Of a stretch of 64,000 bases of DNA, positions 13,264-56,583 are shown one piece after another. This stretch comes from Smittium mucronatum. Taxonomy: Eukaryota > Kickxellomycota > Harpellomycetes > Harpellales > Legeriomycetaceae. The stretch is from assembly GCA_001953115.1 (NCBI GenBank), contig LSSL01000004.1, positions 62,001 through 126,000 of the forward strand, read 5' to 3'. Both the position numbers and the translations under genes were made by a program. Position 1 is the first letter of the stretch. Each line of letters opens with the position of its first letter. The notes beneath the pieces were generated by a model that did not search any database, had not been told where the DNA came from, and saw only the letters and a program-made list of their open reading frames with translations.

Positions 13264-13387
13264 GAAGACGGTTTCTCAATCTTTATTTTAATCAATTATC
13301 TTTGACGTTCAATTGCAATTATTTCTCATATAACTTATTTATTTTATTTGTCTTGGGCTAGTGATTAATTATCTTTCTACATTAAAA

Positions 13388-14812
13388 ATGGTCCCTTCTG
13401 CTAACACTCATCGTGATCCAAAGGTGGATCTATTGTACAAATTCAATCATTTAGTCGATATTATACAAGATCAAAACACCGTAGTTTTCCCCGAATTCAA
13501 GCTTGAGAGTGGAGTTGTTCTAAAGGAGGTTCCTGTTGCCTACAAAACATGGGGAACGCTTAACGAAACTCGCGATAATGTCATGGTAATATGCCATGCT
13601 TTCACTGGATCTGCAGATGTTTCAGACTGGTGGGGCCCTCTTCTGGGCGCTGGCAGATCATTTGATAGCTCAAAATTTTTTATAATCTGTTGCAATGTCC
13701 TTGGAAGCCCATATGGAACCGCGTCTCCCTTAACTACAAATGTCGAGACTGGAAGGCCATACGGTCCTGATTTTCCAATAACAACTATCCGTGACGATGT
13801 AGCTTTACATAGAAAAGTTTTGGATCTTCTTCAAATTAGACAAGTCGCTATCGTTATTGGTGGTTCTTTGGGCGGTATGCACGTGTTAGAATGGTCTGAG
13901 TTTGGTACCGATTATGTTCGTACAATCATTCCAATTGCGACTTCTGGTCGTCATAGTGCTTGGGGTATCAGTTGGGGTGAGGCTCAGAGGCAGACCATAT
14001 ACTCAGATCCTAACTATCATGGTGGTTATTATACACAAGACCATAGACCTGATGTTGGACTGAGTGTAGCTCGTATGTCCGCTCTTCTAACTTATCGCTC
14101 TAGAGATTCTTTTGAAGCCAAATTTGGTCGAAAAGGAATGCTTGTAAGTAGGTTGGACTCAAAGCAAACTCTGAAACTCACTTCTAAGGGTGGTATTCAA
14201 TCGGTCAAATACTCACAAGGAAGTAGTTCCGAAGATTCTGATTCAGACTCAACCCCTGAAGTCCCCCAAAATGGTAATAAAGGTTCCTATATCCCAATTG
14301 GTGACCACAGTGGTATTAGTATCGATGCTGCACGACAAAACGATGACAGGTCAGCATCAAGAATATTTTCTGCACAAAGCTATCTTCGATATCAAGGCGA
14401 GAAGTTCACTAAGAGGTTCGATGCTAATTGCTACATAGCTCTATCAAAAAAAATGGATACTCATGATATTGCCCGAAACAGGGGTAAAAGTTTCGATGAG
14501 TGCTTAAGTGATATCAAGCAACCGGCTATGGTTGTTGGTATAGAAACTGATGGTTTGTTCACATTTAGCGAGCAAACTGAACTCGCTACATACATGCCTA
14601 ATGCTACTCTTTCTAAAATTGAATCATATGATGGTCATGATGGGTTTTTGTTGGAATTTGAGCAGCTCAATGTGCTAATACGTAATTTTATCAAGAACAA
14701 TCTTCCAAAACTTTATAACCCTATCCACGCCGATGTTGGAACTTTGTCTGAACATGTCAAATTACTTGGTTCGATCGTCAGTGAAGTGGAACCCAAATTA
14801 TCTAAATGGTAA
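13388..14812 (+). CDS. MET2: Homoserine O-acetyltransferase, copy 1
   Basis: Transfers acetyl from acetyl-CoA to L-homoserine, the committing step toward homocysteine and methionine in fungi; presumably cytosolic. The 474-residue product is an alpha/beta-hydrolase of the MetX/Met2 family, close to the usual fungal length of about 480-490. Visible signatures are the N-terminal GVVLKEVPVAYKTWG block, SADVSDWWGPLLGAGR, SPYGTASPL and YGPDFPITTIRDDV. The nucleophile elbow GGSLGGMHVLEW carries Ser160; the remaining triad residues are Asp388 (in GIETDGLF) and His417 (in YDGHDGFLLEF). A Ser/Asp-rich linker near residues 275-320 matches the variable insert of fungal enzymes. The frame is open further upstream to a GTG at 13361, but the first ATG (AAAATGG context) is chosen. 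No intron is needed. Codon use is less AT-biased than in copy 2, suggesting this is the main, well-expressed copy. A serine O-acetyltransferase activity, known for some relatives, cannot be excluded. Confidence 0.93.
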   Translation: MVPSANTHRDPKVDLLYKFNHLVDIIQDQNTVVFPEFKLESGVVLKEVPVAYKTWGTLNETRDNVMVICHAFTGSADVSDWWGPLLGAGRSFDSSKFFIICCNVLGSPYGTASPLTTNVETGRPYGPDFPITTIRDDVALHRKVLDLLQIRQVAIVIGGSLGGMHVLEWSEFGTDYVRTIIPIATSGRHSAWGISWGEAQRQTIYSDPNYHGGYYTQDHRPDVGLSVARMSALLTYRSRDSFEAKFGRKGMLVSRLDSKQTLKLTSKGGIQSVKYSQGSSSEDSDSDSTPEVPQNGNKGSYIPIGDHSGISIDAARQNDDRSASRIFSAQSYLRYQGEKFTKRFDANCYIALSKKMDTHDIARNRGKSFDECLSDIKQPAMVVGIETDGLFTFSEQTELATYMPNATLSKIESYDGHDGFLLEFEQLNVLIRNFIKNNLPKLYNPIHADVGTLSEHVKLLGSIVSEVEPKLSKW

Positions 14813-18756: not shown

Positions 18757-19661
18757 TGTTATTTTAAAAGGAAATTTTCACAGTGAGAATTTATCTTTTT
18801 ATATCGTTTTTTATTGGGGGCTATACAGGATCATTTTAATGCAGTAAATCTATGTAAAATTTACTGATTTGAAGTGGGGGTAAAAATTACAAATACAATT
18901 TTGAATAGACTTGATATAAAAATTAAAAAGGTTGTAAACAGATGATTAAAACTCAATTTTAATTGGCATTTAATAATATGTGGTGATTAAAGTTTGCATA
19001 AAAATGTTTTCAGTATTATGCAGCCAGTTTGATTCGATTTAGACTTTCCTAACAAATATTAAAAGTATTATGCAACCTTCGACTTGAATAGACGTTGGAT
19101 TACATTTTTAACAGTAAAAAGAAGTTTTTAAAAAGCTTACTCCTGGTTAGACAATGTTTATCAGGAAATTTACTATTATCTTTTCTTTTTTATTTTGCCG
19201 ATACTTTGGATACCTCATTCCATTTATTTTTCAAGTCCAGGCACTTTTGTAGATCATGTTATATTTAGCTAAATATATTTATTCTGAAAAATTTAACCAA
19301 TAAATTTTTTATGCACCAAATGATAAATCATATCCAGGTTTACAAGAATGTCATTATAAAGAGCATTTTGATAAAACTTGCTTAAACTTTCGAGATATTA
19401 TTTGTTGATTTTTTTTTAATTTGATTGCAACAGAGGCCTAGGTTTTATAAACAATATTATAAAGTTATTTTGTTTATAAAACTTATTAATATATACCTTT
19501 TTCTCTATTAATTGCTAACATCAGACATAATTATATAATTTTTTGGTTTCATTTTATATTGAAAAAAATAATTAGATTCAGGGATTATTTAATAAAACTC
19601 TAATTATAAACACCAGCATTTATATATATATGATAAATCTAAAAAACTTTTAATTTTCAGT
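18757..19661. other. Upstream flank of MET2 copy 2
   Basis: AT-rich, no gene seen. The last bases before the ATG, TTTTAATTTTCAG, have the form of a 3' splice site, so a 5' UTR intron is possible. A TATATATATATA stretch lies about 40 bp before the start codon. Confidence 0.5.
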
Positions 19662-20990
19662 ATGGATATTGAAGATTTATTTATAAAAGACAAAATAGAT
19701 TTATTGAACCGCGAAAACCACCTGATAGATGATATACCTGGTCAAAAATTCATAGTTATATCCGAATTTACACTTCAAAGTGGCGTGATATTGAAAGATG
19801 TACCAGTGGCATACATGACATGGGGAGAGTTAAACGAGGAGAAAAGCAATGTTATTTTAGTATGCCACATTTTTTCATCCTCAGCAGATGTTTCAGACTG
19901 GTGGGGTCCACTTCTAGGGGCTGGTAGGGCATTAGATAGTTCCAAGTTTTTTATTATATGTTTCAATGTCTTAGGAAGTCCATACGGTACAGCATCCCCA
20001 CTAACTGTTAATCTAGAAACCGGCGAGCCTTATGGACCAGACTTCCCAATAACTACAATTCGAGATGACGTTTATTTACACAGAAAAGTTTTAGATTTAC
20101 TAAAAATTAATACAATAGCTTTGGTAGTTGGAGGATCTCTTGGAGGTATGCACGCGTTGGAATGGGCTATGTTAGGGTCTAACACTGTTCGAAATATAAT
20201 TTCAATTTCATCTTCTGGCAGACACAGCGCTTGGGGAATAAGTTGTGGAGAAGTTCAAAGACAAATTATATATTTGGATCACAGATATAATGGGGGACAT
20301 TATGCAAAGGATTGCAGCCCAGAAGTGGGATTATGTGTAGCTCGAATGTCAGCCTTTTTGACGTACCGGTCACATGACTCCTTTGTATCTAAGTTTGGCA
20401 GAAGAAGTAATTCTGTTTGTGGAACAAAGTCTAGAATATCATTTGAACTAACCTCGAGGGATGGATTTCAATCTTGTAACTATTCCAGCGAAGATGGATA
20501 CGACTCTGATTCTACTTTAGATACCTTTATAATTGGGAAAAAAGACATTCTTGCATCTATTGGTTACCATTCTGGAGTTGCTATCGGTTCTTCTAGGAAA
20601 ATTGATGGATCTGGGTCAATGGTTTTTTCGGCACAAAGTTATTTAAGACACCAGGGGGAAAAATTCGCAAAGAATTTCGATGCCAATTGTTACATATGTA
20701 TATCCAAAAAAATGGATACTCATGATATAGCGCATTTAAGAAATTCTAGTCATGAAAAATGCTTAAATAGTATAGAACAACCTACCATGATCGTAGGAAT
20801 AGAATCGGATGCTCTATTCACCATTTGTGAGCAAGAGGAGCTTGCCACTCATATCCCAAACGCATCTTTTTATAAAATAGATTCATATGATGGTCACTCT
20901 GGATTCCTTATTGAGTTTGATCAGCTCAACTTAATGATAGGGGAATTCATCAAAAATAATCTTTCTGAGTTCACATCTACAACAAATTAA
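19662..20990 (+). CDS. Homoserine O-acetyltransferase-like, diverged copy 2
   Basis: A 442-residue intact paralogue of the upstream MET2 gene, same strand, about 4.8 kb downstream. By eye roughly two thirds of the core residues are identical. The catalytic triad is kept: Ser159 in GGSLGGMHALEW, Asp383 in GIESDALF and His412 in YDGHSGFLIEF. Changes fall at otherwise conserved family positions: CHAFTGSADVSD of copy 1 is CHIFSSSADVSD here, HSAWGISWGEAQRQ is HSAWGISCGEVQRQ, and GHDGFL is GHSGFL. The C-terminal tail of about 30 residues is missing. Codon use is more AT-rich (AGA, TTA, ATA) than in copy 1, consistent with lower expression or relaxed selection. An open frame with an intact triad argues against a pseudogene. 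A changed acyl donor or acceptor, for example serine, is possible. A 3' splice-like TTTTCAG directly before the ATG leaves some doubt about the true 5' end. Confidence 0.85.
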   Translation: MDIEDLFIKDKIDLLNRENHLIDDIPGQKFIVISEFTLQSGVILKDVPVAYMTWGELNEEKSNVILVCHIFSSSADVSDWWGPLLGAGRALDSSKFFIICFNVLGSPYGTASPLTVNLETGEPYGPDFPITTIRDDVYLHRKVLDLLKINTIALVVGGSLGGMHALEWAMLGSNTVRNIISISSSGRHSAWGISCGEVQRQIIYLDHRYNGGHYAKDCSPEVGLCVARMSAFLTYRSHDSFVSKFGRRSNSVCGTKSRISFELTSRDGFQSCNYSSEDGYDSDSTLDTFIIGKKDILASIGYHSGVAIGSSRKIDGSGSMVFSAQSYLRHQGEKFAKNFDANCYICISKKMDTHDIAHLRNSSHEKCLNSIEQPTMIVGIESDALFTICEQEELATHIPNASFYKIDSYDGHSGFLIEFDQLNLMIGEFIKNNLSEFTSTTN

Positions 20991-25061: not shown

Positions 25062-26492
25062 ACCATTTCTTCTTCATTAATAGACTTTTTTTTATTTTTA
25101 AAATTCATTACTTTTATTATCCTTATTAATTTTACATAATAATAAACCCCTTTTCTGTTTACGCCTCCACTCTCTTCCCACCAAATTCGCATCTATTTCG
25201 GTTTTTTATATAATACCTAAAATATTATCCCATTAACTCTTTAACAGCTAATTATGCTAAATTCAGCCATCAATACTAGCCATTATTTACAGCACTTTAT
25301 TTATTCATCCAACGATGAGTTGACACTATATCGGTTACGTCGTATCATCTGCCGTATGGATTTATTAAATTTGTTCATACCATTGCATACAGAGTAAACA
25401 TGGCCATTAATTCGTTTTTGTTAAAAAATAAAACCAATTCTGTTCCATATATAAATGATTCTTTGGGATAATATAAAAAAATCAAAAAAAAAATCCCTCC
25501 CTTCAAATTAAAGTATGTTGGTACTGTTACATAAATCAATTGATTAATAATTAAAAGTTTTTTTTTTTTTTTTCCAGATCTGTAATTAATAATCCCACTT
25601 TAAATTTGCTGGAAATTGTTTTTGAGTAATCAATCGACCTACTAACTGGGTAATAAATTGAATGCTGCAAAATGAAGAACTGAAACTTTTTAAAAAAAAA
25701 AAAAAAAAAAAAAAANNNNNNNNNNNNNNNNNNNNNNNNNNNNNNNNNNNNNNNNNNNNNNNNNNNNNNNNNNNNNNNNNNNNNNNNNNNNNNNNNNNNN
25801 NNNNNNNNNNNNNNNNNNNNNNNNNNNNNNNNNNNNNNNNNNNNNNNNNNNNNNNNNNNNNNNNNNNNNNNNNNNNNNNNNNNNNNNNNNNNNNNNNNNN
25901 NNNNNNNNNNNNNNNNNNNNNNNNNNNNNNNNNNNNNNNNNNNNNNNNNNNNNNNNNNNNNNNNNNNNNNNNNNNNNNNNNNNNNNNNNNNNNNNNNNNN
26001 NNNNNNNNNNNNNNNNNNNNNNNNNNNNNNNNNNNNNNNNNNNNNNNNNNNNNNNNNNNNNNNNNNNNNNNNNNNNNNNNNNNNNNNNNNNNNNNNNNNN
26101 NNNNNNNNNNNNNNNNNNNNNNNNNNNNNNNNNNNNNNNNNNNNNNNNNNNNNNNNNNNNNNNNNNNNNNNNNNNNNNNNNNNNAAAAAAAAAAAAAAAA
26201 AAAAAAAACTATAAAGAATGCTAAAGAATCGCCCACGCGAATAAAACAGAAAGTGTATTTGTTAAAACAAGAATGCAAAAAAAAAAAAAAAATCAACAAG
26301 TACAATTAAATTATTTATCAGTTGAAAAAGTGTAACTCTATTATAAATAAATAAAAAAATCAATTCCCTCAAAAGACATGAAAAATGAAAACAAAAAACG
26401 GGGGAAAGGGTGCAAGCTGGAAAGATTAGAATGGAGATATGAAACGGTGTACTAGACTAACTTGCAATAAAAAAATAAAGAAAATAGAACGT
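25062..26492. other. Intergenic region with gap
   Basis: Between the convergent GT15 (+) and DBP7 (-) genes. It contains an N gap and both 3' flanks, and no gene is seen. Confidence 0.6.
25716..26184. other. Assembly gap (469 N) inside an A run
   Basis: The N run is flanked by A tracts on both sides, as the gap at 1656-2253 is by T tracts. Frames that cross it are artefacts. Confidence 0.99.
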
Positions 26493-32740: not shown

Positions 32741-33465
32741 TCATCTCTTTTCATCGGGATTAAAATTCGAAGGAGGAAAGTCGTACACTGGCAAATTGTT
32801 CTGGTCGGTAGATTGCAGGTTGTTGGCTGGTTGGGTATTTTGTTCTCCAACAACTTCAGAGTACGAAGGCAGAACCTCGTTATGGCTAGGTATTTCGCCA
32901 GTTTCTCGTATTCTGTCCAACATTTGCATAAATATAGTATAAAAGTCAAATCCGCCGGCCTCTTTGAATATTAATTTTAATTTTCCGTTTGATGGAAGAC
33001 CACCCTCTGGAACCGGTTCGAAATCAAGATGTAAGTAATTAGCTCCAAAGATAGGCTGTTGGAACTTGGGATTTAAAATGTAGGTGTGGGGTACTGAAAA
33101 GGTCATGAATCTTCTTGGGCCCTGAGATGAGCCATGTTCATTAGCCAGAGCTGGCGTATTGACGTTCACATAAACTATCCTTTTATTCGTGACGTATCCA
33201 GTCCCCGATGCAGATTTGAAAGCGACAGTATTTCCTGGATATCCACTTTTTTTATATATATATATTCAAAGTGCATATTTGTTAGTCATTCTGAATAGAA
33301 AGAACGACTATGGACTACCCCTTAACAGAATAAAAAACAAAAATCCACTTACTCTCCACACATCAAGTCCAGTGATATTTTCGAAACCTGGTAGAGAAAG
33401 TTCTCGCCCGGGAGCGGTATAGGAGTGAGGTAGTCAGAATCCAACATCACGCAGTTTACAGCCAT
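32741..33465 (-). CDS. WBP2-like GRAM-domain protein with PY motifs
   Basis: Two exons on the minus strand, 33465-33353 and 33245-32741, joined give 205 residues starting MAVNCVMLDSDYLTPIPLPG. The 107-nt intron (33352-33246) has a GTAAGT donor and a TGACTAAC branch site at about 33282-33289. Its acceptor is an unusual A-rich AAG. Splicing there yields DGYPGNTVAFKSASGTGYVT, matching the Tyr-Pro-Gly and Thr-Asn-Lys-Arg positions of fungal homologues. The GRAM-like domain continues through QQPIFGANYLHLDFEPVPEG to FYTIFMQMLDRI. LPSY (163-166) and LPVY (189-192) near the C-terminus are PY-type motifs that bind WW domains, for example of Rsp5/Nedd4 ubiquitin ligases. The function is inferred to be an adaptor, with no enzymatic motif. 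The stop codon lies 196 bp from that of the heme lyase gene. Confidence 0.85.
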
Positions 33466-46718: not shown

Positions 46719-47150
46719 TTTATTTTTTTGTATCAATGAATTATATTAATAGATAACTTCATTAAAAACTGTACTAGAAAAATATCAAAAAAAGAAAAAT
46801 GCGTATAAAAAAGACTATTATCCTAATTACAATAAGCTCCTCTGTCGGGCTACCACTGCGTACCTATAGGAAAAGGGTGCAATCTACCAACCGAAAAACC
46901 TCCCCTGGTATTGCTTCAAGTAGATGTATGACTGAAGTTACATGCAATCAAGAATTAATCTCTTTTTCAATGAACAACAGTCCATTGAAGATATTGAGCT
47001 CCTAGTCAGAGCCTACTTCCAACAGGATTAATAAAATTAAGGCTCCTACCCAAAAGTGTTATTGATCAACATTGCTTTCCTACAAATTACTGTTGGAAGC
47101 TGAGATCCGTCTGACTGTCGAACGCTGAACTTGTGCACTAGACTATGTCT
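46719..47150 (-). repeat. Dispersed retroposon family R, copy 3
   Basis: Aligns with 18360-18756 over its length: T-rich left end, CATTAAAAACTGTACTA, AAGACTATTATCCTAATTAC, CTGCGTACCTA, CAATCTACCAACCGAAAAAC, TATTGCTTCAAGTAG, GCTGAGATCC. GC-richer sequence continues to about 47260 and may be the 5' part of the element. The poly(A) end is on the left, so the element lies on the minus strand. Confidence 0.8.
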
Positions 47151-47310
47151 CAACTGTGCTAAACGATCGGTTCCTCTTGTTTCGAGATGGTCCTCCTCTG
47201 GAATCGCTGTCCTTCTAATTGCTGTGCGCTGCCTCCACTACTACCAACCAATAATATTACAATGCTGTGTGGAATTTTAGTTTAGTTTACTTCGAAAAGT
47301 ACACCATTAA

Positions 47311-47348
47311 ACCCCTAAACCATGGCGAGGTATTTCGCTTTTAGGGGT
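47311..47348. repeat. Hairpin ACCCCTAAA / TTTAGGGGT
   Basis: Nine-base perfect inverted repeat with a 20-nt spacer, about 430 bp past the last recognisable DIRS-like coding fragment. It could be part of that element's end, which is speculative. Confidence 0.4.
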
Positions 47349-50560: not shown

Positions 50561-51796
50561 ATTCCGAAATTTAGCTCTTTTGAGAAGAATTTGGTCTAAA
50601 TTCTCAGAGATTGTTTAAGAAAATGTAATACTTTTAACCTCACGACTTTTTTTTGAAAATATTCTATTAATTCTTACATGTTTAGAACATTAAAAAAAAA
50701 AAATTCAAGTAGATAGAGTAACTCAGCGAAAGAAAAGATAATGGGGATATAATTATACCGTAATTTCAGTTTTATAAAATAAAATAGATTAGATTTTTAT
50801 ATTTATTTGAGTACTAAAATATGATTGTTTTTTGCAATTCAATCTTTTTAAAAAAACAAGTATTTAATAACTTAATATGACCACATCTTGAATTTTAATT
50901 TCAAAAAAATTCCTTATATAAGGTTTTTGTACCTTATTGGAAAAAAAATAAATTTCTATTTTCGAAATATGAAACGAAGTGTAGCTAGTGTAAAATAATA
51001 ATCAAGTAATAAAACTGACATAATTAAATTTTTACGTATTTCAGTTATCACTATAATAAGTATGAGTGTTGATGTTGATGTTGAATAAACCCCTTTTACT
51101 TTGAATTTTTTGAATTTTACTTCATCGATTATTTAAAAAAAACATCAATACTATAAATCATTCTAACACCAACCAAATAATTTGAATTGAATACTGAATT
51201 GTATCTATAACATTATTGTCTAGTAAAAATTATGGAAAAAAATCCTATAAATATTAGTCATATTCTTACAGTAAGAACTGAATTAATACTAATTTTTTTC
51301 GCAATTATTATACTTTTTTATGGATTTTGGATATTATTAAGCTATAAAATAATCATTAAAGAAAAAAAAATATGTAGTATTAAAAAGAAATGATATAAAT
51401 TTATTTTAAAAAATCCGTCTATGTAAAAAAATATTCTTCCGTTCTATTTAAATAGAAAACTTTTAAAATCTTCGATAAAACGAAATTATATTCTGAAATA
51501 TTGACAATTATGTTATATTGAACTAATTTTATATAATTATCCAAAATTTTATTCTTCAACATATAAATTATGTTATAAAAGTATTTAAGCTGTAAAATAA
51601 GTTAAATATTAAATTTAAAAAATAGAAATTTGTATTAAAAATAAGTGTTATTAATTACGCGATTATTGGCTATAATAAGTAAGATCTGCATATTTCTAAT
51701 AAATGTGGTTTTTGAATAACAATTCCTCCGTCTAAGAAAAAAATTCTGCGTATTTAAGGGATAATTTCATAAAATATTCAAAGTTTTCAAAAGAAA
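50561..51796. other. AT-rich gene-free region
   Basis: No gene is seen. Composition returns to about 80% A+T immediately after the DIRS-like block. Confidence 0.6.
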
Positions 51797-52445
51797 TTAA
51801 GGTAATATCCAAAAATAATTTAAAATTTAAAAAATATTATAACTGAGTTTTTTGATTTGGTGAATAGAAATTGGTTCATCGGTTGCCAATAGAAATAAAA
51901 TTGCTATTCAAAAAAATATTGTTAATTTAAATTTATTTTAGAACACGTAGACTTTCATAATATGAAAAACAGTCATTTTAAATAAAAAACTGAAATAATA
52001 ATGGAAATATTTATCAAAAACCCATAGTGATCATGGTACACAATTTCGATTTTTATTTCAGCAAAATTATTTTTTAGGCTAAATAGATAAATATAATGCC
52101 TTTTTTTTTGCTACGTTGGATAATTAAAAAACCCTGCATATATAAAATAGAGAAGAAATTTGTTCTTCGAATTTTGTGAGATTCATTCGAAATAAAATTT
52201 AAAAAATCATTTTAAATTGATTACCCCCCCCCCCGCTAAAAAGAAATTTTTGCTTTATTTAAAAACTTATATCGCAAGAGTCAGAATATTTTTGTTGATT
52301 TTATTTTCTATTTGGGTCTTATGGCACAGATTCAGAATTCATTAATTTCAGTGATAGAATACTCCAGGAGATAAAATTTTTTGCAATAACTTTTGTCTAG
52401 ATTAAAAAGGCTTCTGTTAAAAATAAAAAGTAATTATCAATACTT
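51797..52445 (+). repeat. Left arm of the long inverted repeat
   Basis: Matches the reverse complement of 54664-55308. Similarity decays gradually at the inner edge (after AATTATCAATACTT) and ends sharply at the outer edge. Confidence 0.9.
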
Positions 52446-54663
52446 GTAGCGTTCTTTAAATATTTTTTTTCTATCGGTTTTAAGGATTTTTTTTTAATAT
52501 AAAATCAAGAGACAATAAAGAAGCATTTATTTCTTAAAGTATCATTTATGTTTTCATTGAAGATTCAAATATTAAAACTTTTCATAATTTTTTTTTTATT
52601 ATTTTCTTACCCAAATTGAAATAATTACGAATCGATTAATGCACTCAAAGAAATAGAACGGGAATATTTTTTTTAATCCATTCAGGAATATAATTTTAAT
52701 TTCTATTTGAAAAAAGATGTGATTTTCTATCTTATAAGTTGAATATCATTAGTATTTTTTTAATATTCCCATATTGGTTGCAAAAATGGCTAAAGATGTA
52801 TCCTAGAAGATTTTGGAAATATTTATTAATTTGAGACCAGTGATAGAAAAAAAAACCGCATTGATTATATATAAGTTGAAATTATGTTATTTTATACAAA
52901 TAAAGATCTTTATTCTTTTTAAAAAAATGTGTCTGCATAGAGCGAGGAACATAAAATTGGAAAAACTAATTTTATCTTGTTTAAAAAAATTCATATTTAA
53001 ATATTGGGACTAGTTTTTATTTAATGAAACGTGAAATTTTGTTTATTTTAGTATAATTTTCCCCAAATTTAATTCTTTAGATGCTAATTTTTTTAAAAAA
53101 AAAACTCTGGACGAGATTTATTTAAAATAAAAGTAACAGATGTAATTTTATGTCATCTGAAAATTGAGAAACTGAAAGTTTTATCCAAAATAATTTGATT
53201 TTAATAAATAGAAAGAACTATATTCTTAATTTTTTTCTAAAAAAATCAACTCTTTTTTAAAAACTAAAGTTGTAATGATGATTTTTTGGTCGGAGTATAT
53301 AAAGTTATATTTCTGAAAAAAAATCTCTTCTTTAGCTCATATAAATAAAATAATAAGATGATACCTCTGTGAAAAGATAAATATAGATATTTGGGATTAC
53401 GAAAACGGTTTTTTCTGAAACCATTTTTTTAGAAAAGAACGGATGATGCAAAAAAAAAATTGGCATCAGAGTTTATTTACATCCTATAGAACATTATATG
53501 AAATACTAGTGTATTATATTTTTATTCCGATTTATTGCATCTTTTCGTCTAATATATTCGAAGTCGAAAGTAGTTGGATCACTAAATATGGGGTAATTTC
53601 ATAATTCTGCCTATTAAACTATTTAATTCTCAAATTTGACATAAATAGTTGCTAATGCGTATTAAAAGTCAAAAAATCATAAGGATGAGTTTAAATAGTA
53701 GGCGTGGAAAAAAAATGAAGAGATTCGACGATAGTTTAAATGCAATGAAAAGAAAAACAGTATGCTAAGATATACAAATATTAATAATAAAAATTTCGCA
53801 TTCCATATAAAAATAGATGAAATCTTTTATTCTTGACTACAAAAAAAGCTCTCTGTTTTATGAAGCTAAAACACTAAGATTTTGTGGGACATATTTTCAT
53901 TTTTGAAAATATGTTATAAAAAATTTGATGCTACTTGAGCTTTTTTAAATATCATAAAATGTAGCAACTATTAAAATAATCTCTATAAAATGTATTTATA
54001 ATTATTGCCTGGATTTCGTGGAGTCAAGATCACAATCAATAATAGAATGAAAAAATAACTGAAATGTGGGGAACAAAAAAATAAAAAATGGTGATTTGAT
54101 CCTTATAAATAAACTCACATACTCTATATTCCTAAAATAATGAAAAAAAATATTAATTAAAAACTATGAATATTAATATTAATATAAATTTGATTGAATT
54201 AGGAATCGCATTAATTGAAAATTGTTAATATATTCTCTCGTATTTATTATAGAAACAACATTATGTTTCATTGAATTTTTTTTAGTAAAATAATAATCAT
54301 ACTCATTCAAAAAATGTAAAATTTGAAGATAAAGAATTTTTTAGTAATTTTTATTAGTGAAAAAAGTGTTAGTAAATTTTATTGCTTAATTTATTAGGGT
54401 TTTAATAATAACAGTTAAATTTATGTTTATTGTAAGAGATGGTAATTCCGCATCTAAAACTGGAATAAATTTCAGTAGTGTGCTACTTTAATAAGATAAA
54501 AAGTTATATATATAAATAATACAACTTAAATGATTTCAAAAAAAAAAAAAACTTTTACGAGAATAGATCCACAAAAATCATTAATATTAGGATAACTTTT
54601 CCTCTTCAACATAAAATTTTGTCTAAATTTTTCTTAAAAAAATCTAGGTTTAAATAAGACTGT

Positions 54664-55308
54664 AAGTATTGATAATTACTTTTTATTTTTAACAGAAGCC
54701 TTTTTAATCTAGACAAAAGTTATTGCAAAAATTTTTATCTCCTGGAGTATTCTATCATTGAAATTAATGAATTCTGAATCTGTGCCATAAGACCCAAATA
54801 GAAAATAAAATCAACAAAAATATTCTGACTCTTGCGATATAAGTTTTTAAATAAAGCAAAAATTTCTTTTTAGCGGGGGGGGGGTAATCAATTTAAAATG
54901 ATTTTTTAAATTTTATTTCGAATGAATCTCACAAAATTCGAAGAACAAATTTCTTCTCTATTTTATACATGCAGGGTTTTTTAATTATCCAACGTAGCAA
55001 AAAAAAAGGCATTATATTTATCTATTTAGCCTAAAAAATAATTTTGCTGAAATAAAAATCGAAATTGTGTACCATGATCACTATGGGTTTTTGATAAATA
55101 TTTCCATTGTTATTTCAGTTTTTTATTTAAAATGACTGTTTTTCATATTATGAAAGTCTACGTGTTCTAAAATAAATTTAAATTAACAATATTTTTTTGA
55201 ATAGCAATTTTATTTCTATTGGCAACCGATGAACCAATTTCTATTCACCAAATCAAAAAACTCAGTTATAATATTTTTTAAATTTTAAATTATTTTAAAT
55301 TACCTTAA
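54664..55308 (-). repeat. Right arm of the long inverted repeat
   Basis: Reverse complement of the left arm. Outer end ATTACCTTAA, inner end AAGTATTGATAATTACT. Confidence 0.9.
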
Positions 55309-56323
55309 CATTTGCTTGATTATCTTTAATTCCAATCTATCAGTTCTGGTTTGTTTATGTATTTCATTTTACGAACAATTTCAGTATAAAAAAATTTTAA
55401 GCTTACCTTAAATTATTGTAAATTCATTATTTCTTTTGTTCCAACTATCAGTAGTATTTAATATTTTTTTAAATTTTATAATTACTTTTTATCATCTCAT
55501 AGTCTAATTTTTACCCTATATATTAATTTTTTTATAATTTTATCTAAAAGTGAATTTTTTACTTTAATAACGTTAAATTTTTTAGTGTCTTATATTAACT
55601 TTTATAATGATTAAGTAATAATATTTTAATATAAAAATTATTAATTTTTTTTATATAGGATACTTTTTTATTGGAATATTTTATCTCAGAAAAATATTAT
55701 TTCTTAAATTGAAAATATAACTTAACTCCACAGCTAATAATTCTAAAATTTTAAGCTTTTTTAAATCATTTCAATAATAGATATCTTTTTAACAGCTTAA
55801 ATAAAAATTTCTCTAACCAATCGGCTATTATCAGTTTTTTTTTATTCCTTTGTATCAATTTTACAGTTTATAGCTATACTAATTCATTTTTTGTTGCGAG
55901 TATATCACTTTATTAAAATATCATAAACCCCTAAATAGAACATCCCAATAGTTTAAGCATCATATTTCCGTACTAATATTCAACTATAATACCTTAGTTA
56001 TTTTTAAAAAAATTAGAATAAGTTGTTTTACTTTTTAATTTAGAATGCTTTCATATTTATTCGGTAATCCATTTGAGAGTGACATAAAGTAATAAATATA
56101 ACACATGATTTGTATAATTTTTTTTAAAAAATCTAGAAAAGAAAAAAAATAAAAATCGAAAATTTTGGCTTTTATGAAAAATGATTCAATGAGAAAATCT
56201 GCAAATAAATAACTCTTGGTATCAAATCTTTTTTATATGACTTAATTTATCTGCCTAATTCTGATTTTGTTTTAATAAAAAAGTGTAAGGATAAGGTTTA
56301 ATGGGATAATTTTAATAATAAAA
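55309..56323. other. AT-rich gene-free region
   Basis: T-rich, no gene seen. Confidence 0.6.
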
Positions 56324-56331
56324 TATAAAAG
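56324..56331 (+). promoter_or_regulatory. TATA box before a candidate small ORF
   Basis: TATAAAAG lies 43-50 bp before the ATG at 56374, followed by an A/G-rich leader. In such AT-rich DNA a chance match is quite possible. Confidence 0.3.
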
Positions 56332-56373
56332 GATATACTAGTTAAAAACATAAAACATAGAGAAAGAGACAAG

Positions 56374-56583
56374 ATGAAAAGATTAGCCATTCCAAAATGT
56401 CTAAGCTTCTTTATTTATACCATTTCCTATTTTCTAAAAGTCAATTTTGCTTATGGGAAGATTTCTTCATTGGATGAAATATTCAATGCGTGTACTGAAT
56501 CTATTGGCTCATTGCAAAAAGTCACAAGAAAATTGAGACTAATATCAGTAAATATTAACGGAATTTTTTTTCTGTACTTTTAA
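56374..56583 (+). CDS. Candidate small secreted protein (exon 1?)
   Basis: A 69-codon frame starting MKRLAIPKCLSFF with a hydrophobic stretch up to about residue 24 and a small residue before KISSLDEIFNACTES. This has the form of a signal peptide plus a short mature part. Composition is less AT-rich than the surroundings. A GTAAAT at 56548, after 58 complete codons, could be a donor. An acceptor TTTTATAG near 56698 would add only seven residues and a stop. The function is unknown, and chance cannot be ruled out. Confidence 0.3.
   Translation: MKRLAIPKCLSFFIYTISYFLKVNFAYGKISSLDEIFNACTESIGSLQKVTRKLRLISVNINGIFFLYF

Follow-up and report, generated by a model that had tools for sequence, protein, structure and literature searches.

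Foldback transposons, such as Galileo and Tetris, have long inverted arms around a centre and form families with many copies. The terminal repeats of piggyBac transposons usually begin with CC next to TTAA. In Drosophila subobscura, the breakpoints of O4, O8, and other inversions that arose from staggered breaks carry inverted duplications (PMC5080602). The centromeres of Candida tropicalis have a core and inverted repeats of 2 to 5 kb each, with repeats that are alike among chromosomes (PMC4741521).

The inverted repeat described here (hereafter the element) is 3.5 kb long and lies in Smittium mucronatum, in a 64,000-nucleotide stretch of DNA (hereafter the window) from a contig of 169,922 bp (C4). 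The element resembles foldback transposons in having long inverted arms that enclose a centre. However, it is found at one locus, has no tandem array, and has no target-site duplication beyond the possible TTAA. With piggyBac-type elements it shares TTAA at both tips, and this genome is rich in the corresponding transposase domain. The differences are that GG rather than CC follows the TTAA, that one locus was found in the searched assembly, that no transposase was found inside, and that the arms are longer than the usual piggyBac repeats. As at the D. subobscura breakpoints, which have an inverted duplicated fragment at both segment ends and no transposon (PMC5080602), the two copies here bound a segment; however, those inversions are large chromosomal ones, whereas the putative inverted segment here would be about 2 kb. 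Similar to the C. tropicalis centromeres (PMC4741521), the element has a unique core between near-identical inverted arms, but it is smaller and has no copies on other contigs of the searched assembly.

Structure of the Inverted Repeat

The left arm (positions 51797–52445, forward strand) aligns to the reverse complement of the right arm (54664–55308, reverse strand) with 640 matches, 5 mismatches, and 4 gap columns (about 99% identity). This alignment bears out the near-identical inverted arms of about 645 bp that the initial annotation had placed here. By blastn, the arm pair extends over 664 columns with 97.9% identity. The centre between the arms (52446–54663; 2,218 bp) is single-copy and lacks a long reading frame; its GC content is 22%, compared to 24% in the left arm. 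Both outer tips consist of TTAA (51797–51800 on the left and 55305–55308 on the right). The outermost TTAAGGTAAT is common to both arms and is followed by a differing block at 51807–51811, which contains one mismatch (51807) and a gap of 3 bp (51809–51811). Four further positions (51999, 52140, 52351, and 52377) each carry a substitution, and the arms also differ by one base in a C run. The whole element is free of N; both N runs of the window lie more than 25 kb from it, the second ending at 26,184.

The similarity between the arms ends sharply on both sides, outer and inner. Comparisons of the two outer and the two inner ends, each at 40 and 150 bp, all (4/4) fell within the random-pair distribution of the region, and the fraction of random pairs that scored as high ranged from 0.21 to 0.94 (n = 4). 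Likewise, all 12 pairwise scores among the four 150-bp flanks were 27 or lower, compared to a 95% point of 31 for random pairs.

The inverted repeat is beyond chance and is by far the best inverted pair on the 170-kb contig. A self-comparison of this contig listed 23 inverted alignments of at least 100 columns, including the pair in the element; the other 22 have identities of 64.6 to 91.6%, and several of these pair members of multi-copy repeats. The rest of the contig yielded no second near-identical inverted pair, and neither did 35 other sequence sets (145,054 bases in total, partly overlapping). These sets comprise 34 loci of about 3 to 4 kb that were brought in by other searches, which are too short to contain a whole pair spaced as widely as that of the element, and 30 kb of contig C141. 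The survey of these sets returned four inverted alignments of at least 100 columns, all in C141, of which the longest has 236 columns with 72% identity and none exceeds 76%. The contig and the survey together represent about 0.4% of the genome, which is too little for estimating the rate or commonness of such events.

Copy Number in the Genome Assembly

The searched assembly contains 73.8 Mb in 2,957 contigs. The 27 contigs with listed lengths are all longer than 10 kb (smallest, 10,247 bp), and copies on short contigs may be missed. The DNA search also skips words of very high frequency, a relevant limit for a genome so rich in A and T. With this scope, the left arm matched two places in the 73.8-Mb assembly, and these are the two arms of the element itself (all candidates scored, 2/2; the right arm is one of the two matches). 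Thus, the search for further arm copies proposed in the initial annotation returned only the arms that were already known. The centre (52470–54636) matched only itself in the same assembly (1/1 candidates scored), and a pattern of the 50-base tip with up to three mismatches was found in the assembly only at the locus of the element.

In addition to its own locus and the arm pair, a 5.9-kb query that included the flanks found a dispersed repeat, beginning near 56,270, in at least 38 copies, as well as ten weak matches; 40 of the 323 candidates were scored in this search, and the flanks were also searched separately. The right flank (55309–56250) matched one place in the assembly. The left flank (50600–51796) matched its own place, 20 relatives of the segment 50684–50915, one relative of the segment 51072–51166, and three weak matches. 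The 20 relatives have 68–78% identity with E-values of 1e-6 or better, which characterizes 50684–50915 as an old dispersed repeat, whereas the single relative of 51072–51166 spans 95 bases with 74% identity (E = 5e-7). The suggestion that the neighbouring DNA is highly decayed holds in part, namely for this old repeat in the left flank. Because the left-flank relatives were detected at 68–78% identity, any arm copies of moderate divergence would probably have been detected too.

No second place in the assembly covers the left-flank bases that adjoin the element, and neither an empty site nor a second allele was found in the 73.8 Mb searched. The search for empty sites with a single TTAA that was proposed in the initial annotation thus returned none from this assembly. 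A larger segmental duplication, which had been raised there as the case against a discrete element, was not seen and is ruled out, as the similarity stops at the arm ends.

Several candidate relatives were considered and rejected. The ten weak matches (E-values of 0.37 to 8.4), which are located on the flanks, arms, or centre, were taken as chance rather than as copies. The left tip accounts for four of these ten (E-values of 1.3 to 4.5), three of which were inspected. Two of them, located at places that resemble each other, share GAAATTAAG-TAAT with the left tip; because this match extends into the flank beyond the TTAA, both were attributed to chance. Similarly, a tip relative at locus L010 (55 columns, 85% identity, E = 4e-8) was judged to be an AT-rich chance match, since the reversed element scores equally and the 50-base tip pattern finds only the locus of the element. 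When compared with the fetched loci, the element produced eight matches at an E-value of 1e-3, and the element read backwards produced nine, with an equal best score of 53.6 bits.

Coding and RNA Content

The longest stop-to-stop frame inside the 3.5-kb element is 68 aa, in agreement with the non-coding centre recorded in the initial annotation. With no frame above this length, no transposase was found inside the element. For Pfam families, the two longest frames in the centre had no match at an E-value of 0.1, and none of seven frames, two inside the element and the others in its vicinity, had a match above the curated cut-off. Three sub-threshold Pfam matches (E-values of 0.018 to 0.08) are all located outside the element. 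No Rfam match at the gathering score and no tRNA was found within the window. Tandem Repeats Finder listed no tandem array between 44.8 and 60.9 kb, and thus none inside the element.

The surroundings are also poor in open reading frames (ORFs). The region C4:95,265–159,480 (about 64 kb), which includes positions 33265–64000 of the window, has one ORF of at least 150 aa, and a second ORF-poor stretch of about 36 kb is located on the same contig. Genes with short exons may be hidden in the 64-kb region.

For the components of RNA silencing, the genome encodes an Argonaute with Piwi, PAZ, N, Mid, and linker domains. In addition, an open frame of 2,549 aa has two RNase III matches and is probably Dicer-like, judging from these domain matches. 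A Pfam scan of a 1,061-aa part around one of the two matches found RNase III families only. A search for RNA-dependent RNA polymerase (RdRP) found no match in the genome; the same search also had no match in its 14 control genomes, and this result is hence no sign of absence.

TTAA Ends and piggyBac-Domain Sequences

The initial annotation described a foldback-like element whose arm identity ends outwards at TTAA; it likened these ends to piggyBac-type targeting but considered the family unclear because of the GG next to them. The first observation stands in that TTAA is present at both outer tips, with GGTAAT adjoining it on the inside. However, the tip is not clean, given the mismatch and gap that begin 10 bases into the left arm, and the TTAA pair amounts to one coincidence. 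Because TTAA is its own reverse complement, its presence on one arm tip forces TTAA at the other end, such that the left and right motifs are not independent. TTAA also starts at 2% of the positions in the local 7 kb, and 14% of the positions are within three bases of one. Given the palindrome and this frequency, the argument for TTAA targeting loses most of its force. Furthermore, no longer target-site duplication is present, as the bases outside the two TTAA motifs do not repeat each other. The proposed foldback element with TTAA targeting is accordingly not upheld, in view of a palindromic and locally frequent motif, the lack of other arm copies, and the lack of an empty site in the assembly. 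As a more general caution, where A and T make up nearly 80% of the DNA, TTAA tips on an inverted repeat are a weak sign of transposition, since the motif is its own reverse complement.

Matches to the piggyBac transposase domain occur in 95 stretches of the genome, and one of these is in an open frame of 593 aa. Four of the piggyBac-domain loci have about 3 to 5.4 kb of common sequence, and no TTAA-flanked tips of these resident repeats could be placed at the four loci. The piggyBac-domain stretches at L026 (contig C2800), L027 (C2509), and L031 (C151) are in repeat units that are alike over up to 5.4 kb. At L026, repeated sequence is present on one side of the piggyBac-domain stretch. The ends of these units were not found.

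Origin of the Inverted Repeat

A recent local inverted duplication that resulted from DNA-break repair, rather than from transposition, is the most likely explanation for the element, and we regard it as somewhat better than an even bet. A local inverted duplication predicts two inverted copies close to each other and none elsewhere, as seen in the searched assembly. The arms differ at 5 of 645 aligned bases (0.8%) and at two gap sites. This divergence is close to the SNP ratios of 0.41 to 0.75% given for eight of nine Harpellales assemblies (0.06% in the other one), and the authors judged these eight to be possibly diploid (PMC5954228). That the similarity breaks off sharply, with none left outside or inside, fits one recent event. 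The initial annotation had offered recent origin or ongoing gene conversion as the reason for the high arm identity, and the identity observed supports this pair of options. Gene conversion between older arms would equally keep the arms alike, and the data do not separate it from a recent event.

For the mechanism, a micro-inversion with staggered breaks is the favoured candidate route. If one break had a long stagger and each of its sides was filled in, a 0.65-kb stretch would be retained at both ends of the turned-over segment. A close alternative is a template switch during replication or repair that may have pasted an inverted copy 2.2 kb away, which would produce the same anatomy when no outgroup is at hand. 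Once present, the arms could recombine with each other, and this would turn the centre around or maintain the arm identity through gene conversion. A function is not needed to explain the inverted repeat, and probably nothing has been selected.

The main rival to a local inverted duplication is a single-copy foldback or other non-autonomous DNA transposon with terminal inverted repeats of 0.65 kb, whose insertion at TTAA would have relied on a transposase from elsewhere in the genome (e.g., one of the piggyBac type). The arms do end at TTAA on both tips, and the plentiful piggyBac-type stretches, including the one in the 593-aa frame, indicate that TTAA-using enzymes may exist here, for which reason we retain this origin as a minority prospect. 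It is nevertheless unlikely given that neither the arms nor the centre have another copy in the searched assembly, that the TTAA pair is a single palindromic coincidence at a motif so frequent locally (2% exact and 14% within three bases), that GG occupies the place of the usual CC, and that the element has no longer target-site duplication and no tandem array inside. We place rather less weight on an assembly artefact, in which two alleles or mis-joined reads would have given a false inverted pair. The fragmentation into 2,957 contigs would be compatible with such an error, as would an arm difference that approximates the SNP ratios of these fungi, eight of nine of which are possibly diploid (PMC5954228). 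However, the four arm flanks are mutually unrelated, unlike the case of two alleles of one plain locus, and the element contains no N, with the N runs of the window more than 25 kb away.

Two further explanations assign a role to the element. If the element were transcribed, a long hairpin would form, and a role in hairpin RNA is possible. A functional locus of this kind, in which transcription through both arms would give a long double strand that is cut by Dicer into small RNAs, appears improbable. Pairing between the arms could extend over about 0.65 kb, and the genome has both an Argonaute with all its domains and the 2,549-aa frame with two RNase III matches. However, the loop would be 2.2 kb, and no locus resembling the arms, and hence no target in trans, was evident in the assembly at the search sensitivity used. 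Still more remote is the prospect that the element is part of a regional centromere similar to those of C. tropicalis, that is, a small inverted-repeat core of a Harpellales chromosome with a unique AT-rich centre and arms homogenized by gene conversion. The unique core between near-identical inverted arms and the location in the ORF-poor region of about 64 kb are in line with this idea. On the other hand, the arms of 0.65 kb and the core of 2.2 kb are small relative to the 2 to 5 kb of each in C. tropicalis, the repeats are alike among chromosomes in that species (PMC4741521) whereas no other copy was found here, and the same contig has another ORF-poor stretch. With these alternatives weighed, the reading as a TTAA foldback element gives way to that of a recent local inverted duplication, which we favour with fair but not strong confidence. 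On this view, an early-diverging fungus carries an inverted duplication that is both recent and datable.

Other Features of the Window

The two N runs of the window (positions 1656–2253 and 25716–26184) have poly-A or poly-T borders. Two frames for homoserine O-acetyltransferase (positions 13334–14812 and 19596–20990) lie in the same orientation at a distance of about 6 kb. The second frame is probably P0006 (64% identical over 91%), and the two are probably products of an old tandem duplication. The closest named protein to the homoserine O-acetyltransferase in the window is from Smittium culicis, with 74% identity.

Dispersed repeats are also present. Positions 46723–47345 (C4:108723–109345) contain a member of a repeat with several copies on the contig, which have 64.6–87.2% identity among the matches listed. 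At about 56270–56500, a copy of a dispersed repeat has at least 38 other places in the assembly, with 89–94% identity. Elsewhere on the contig, C4:44444–44667 and C4:45004–45227 form a direct pair of 224 bp with 100% identity inside a dispersed repeat, which represents another recent local duplication and is in line with such an origin for the element.
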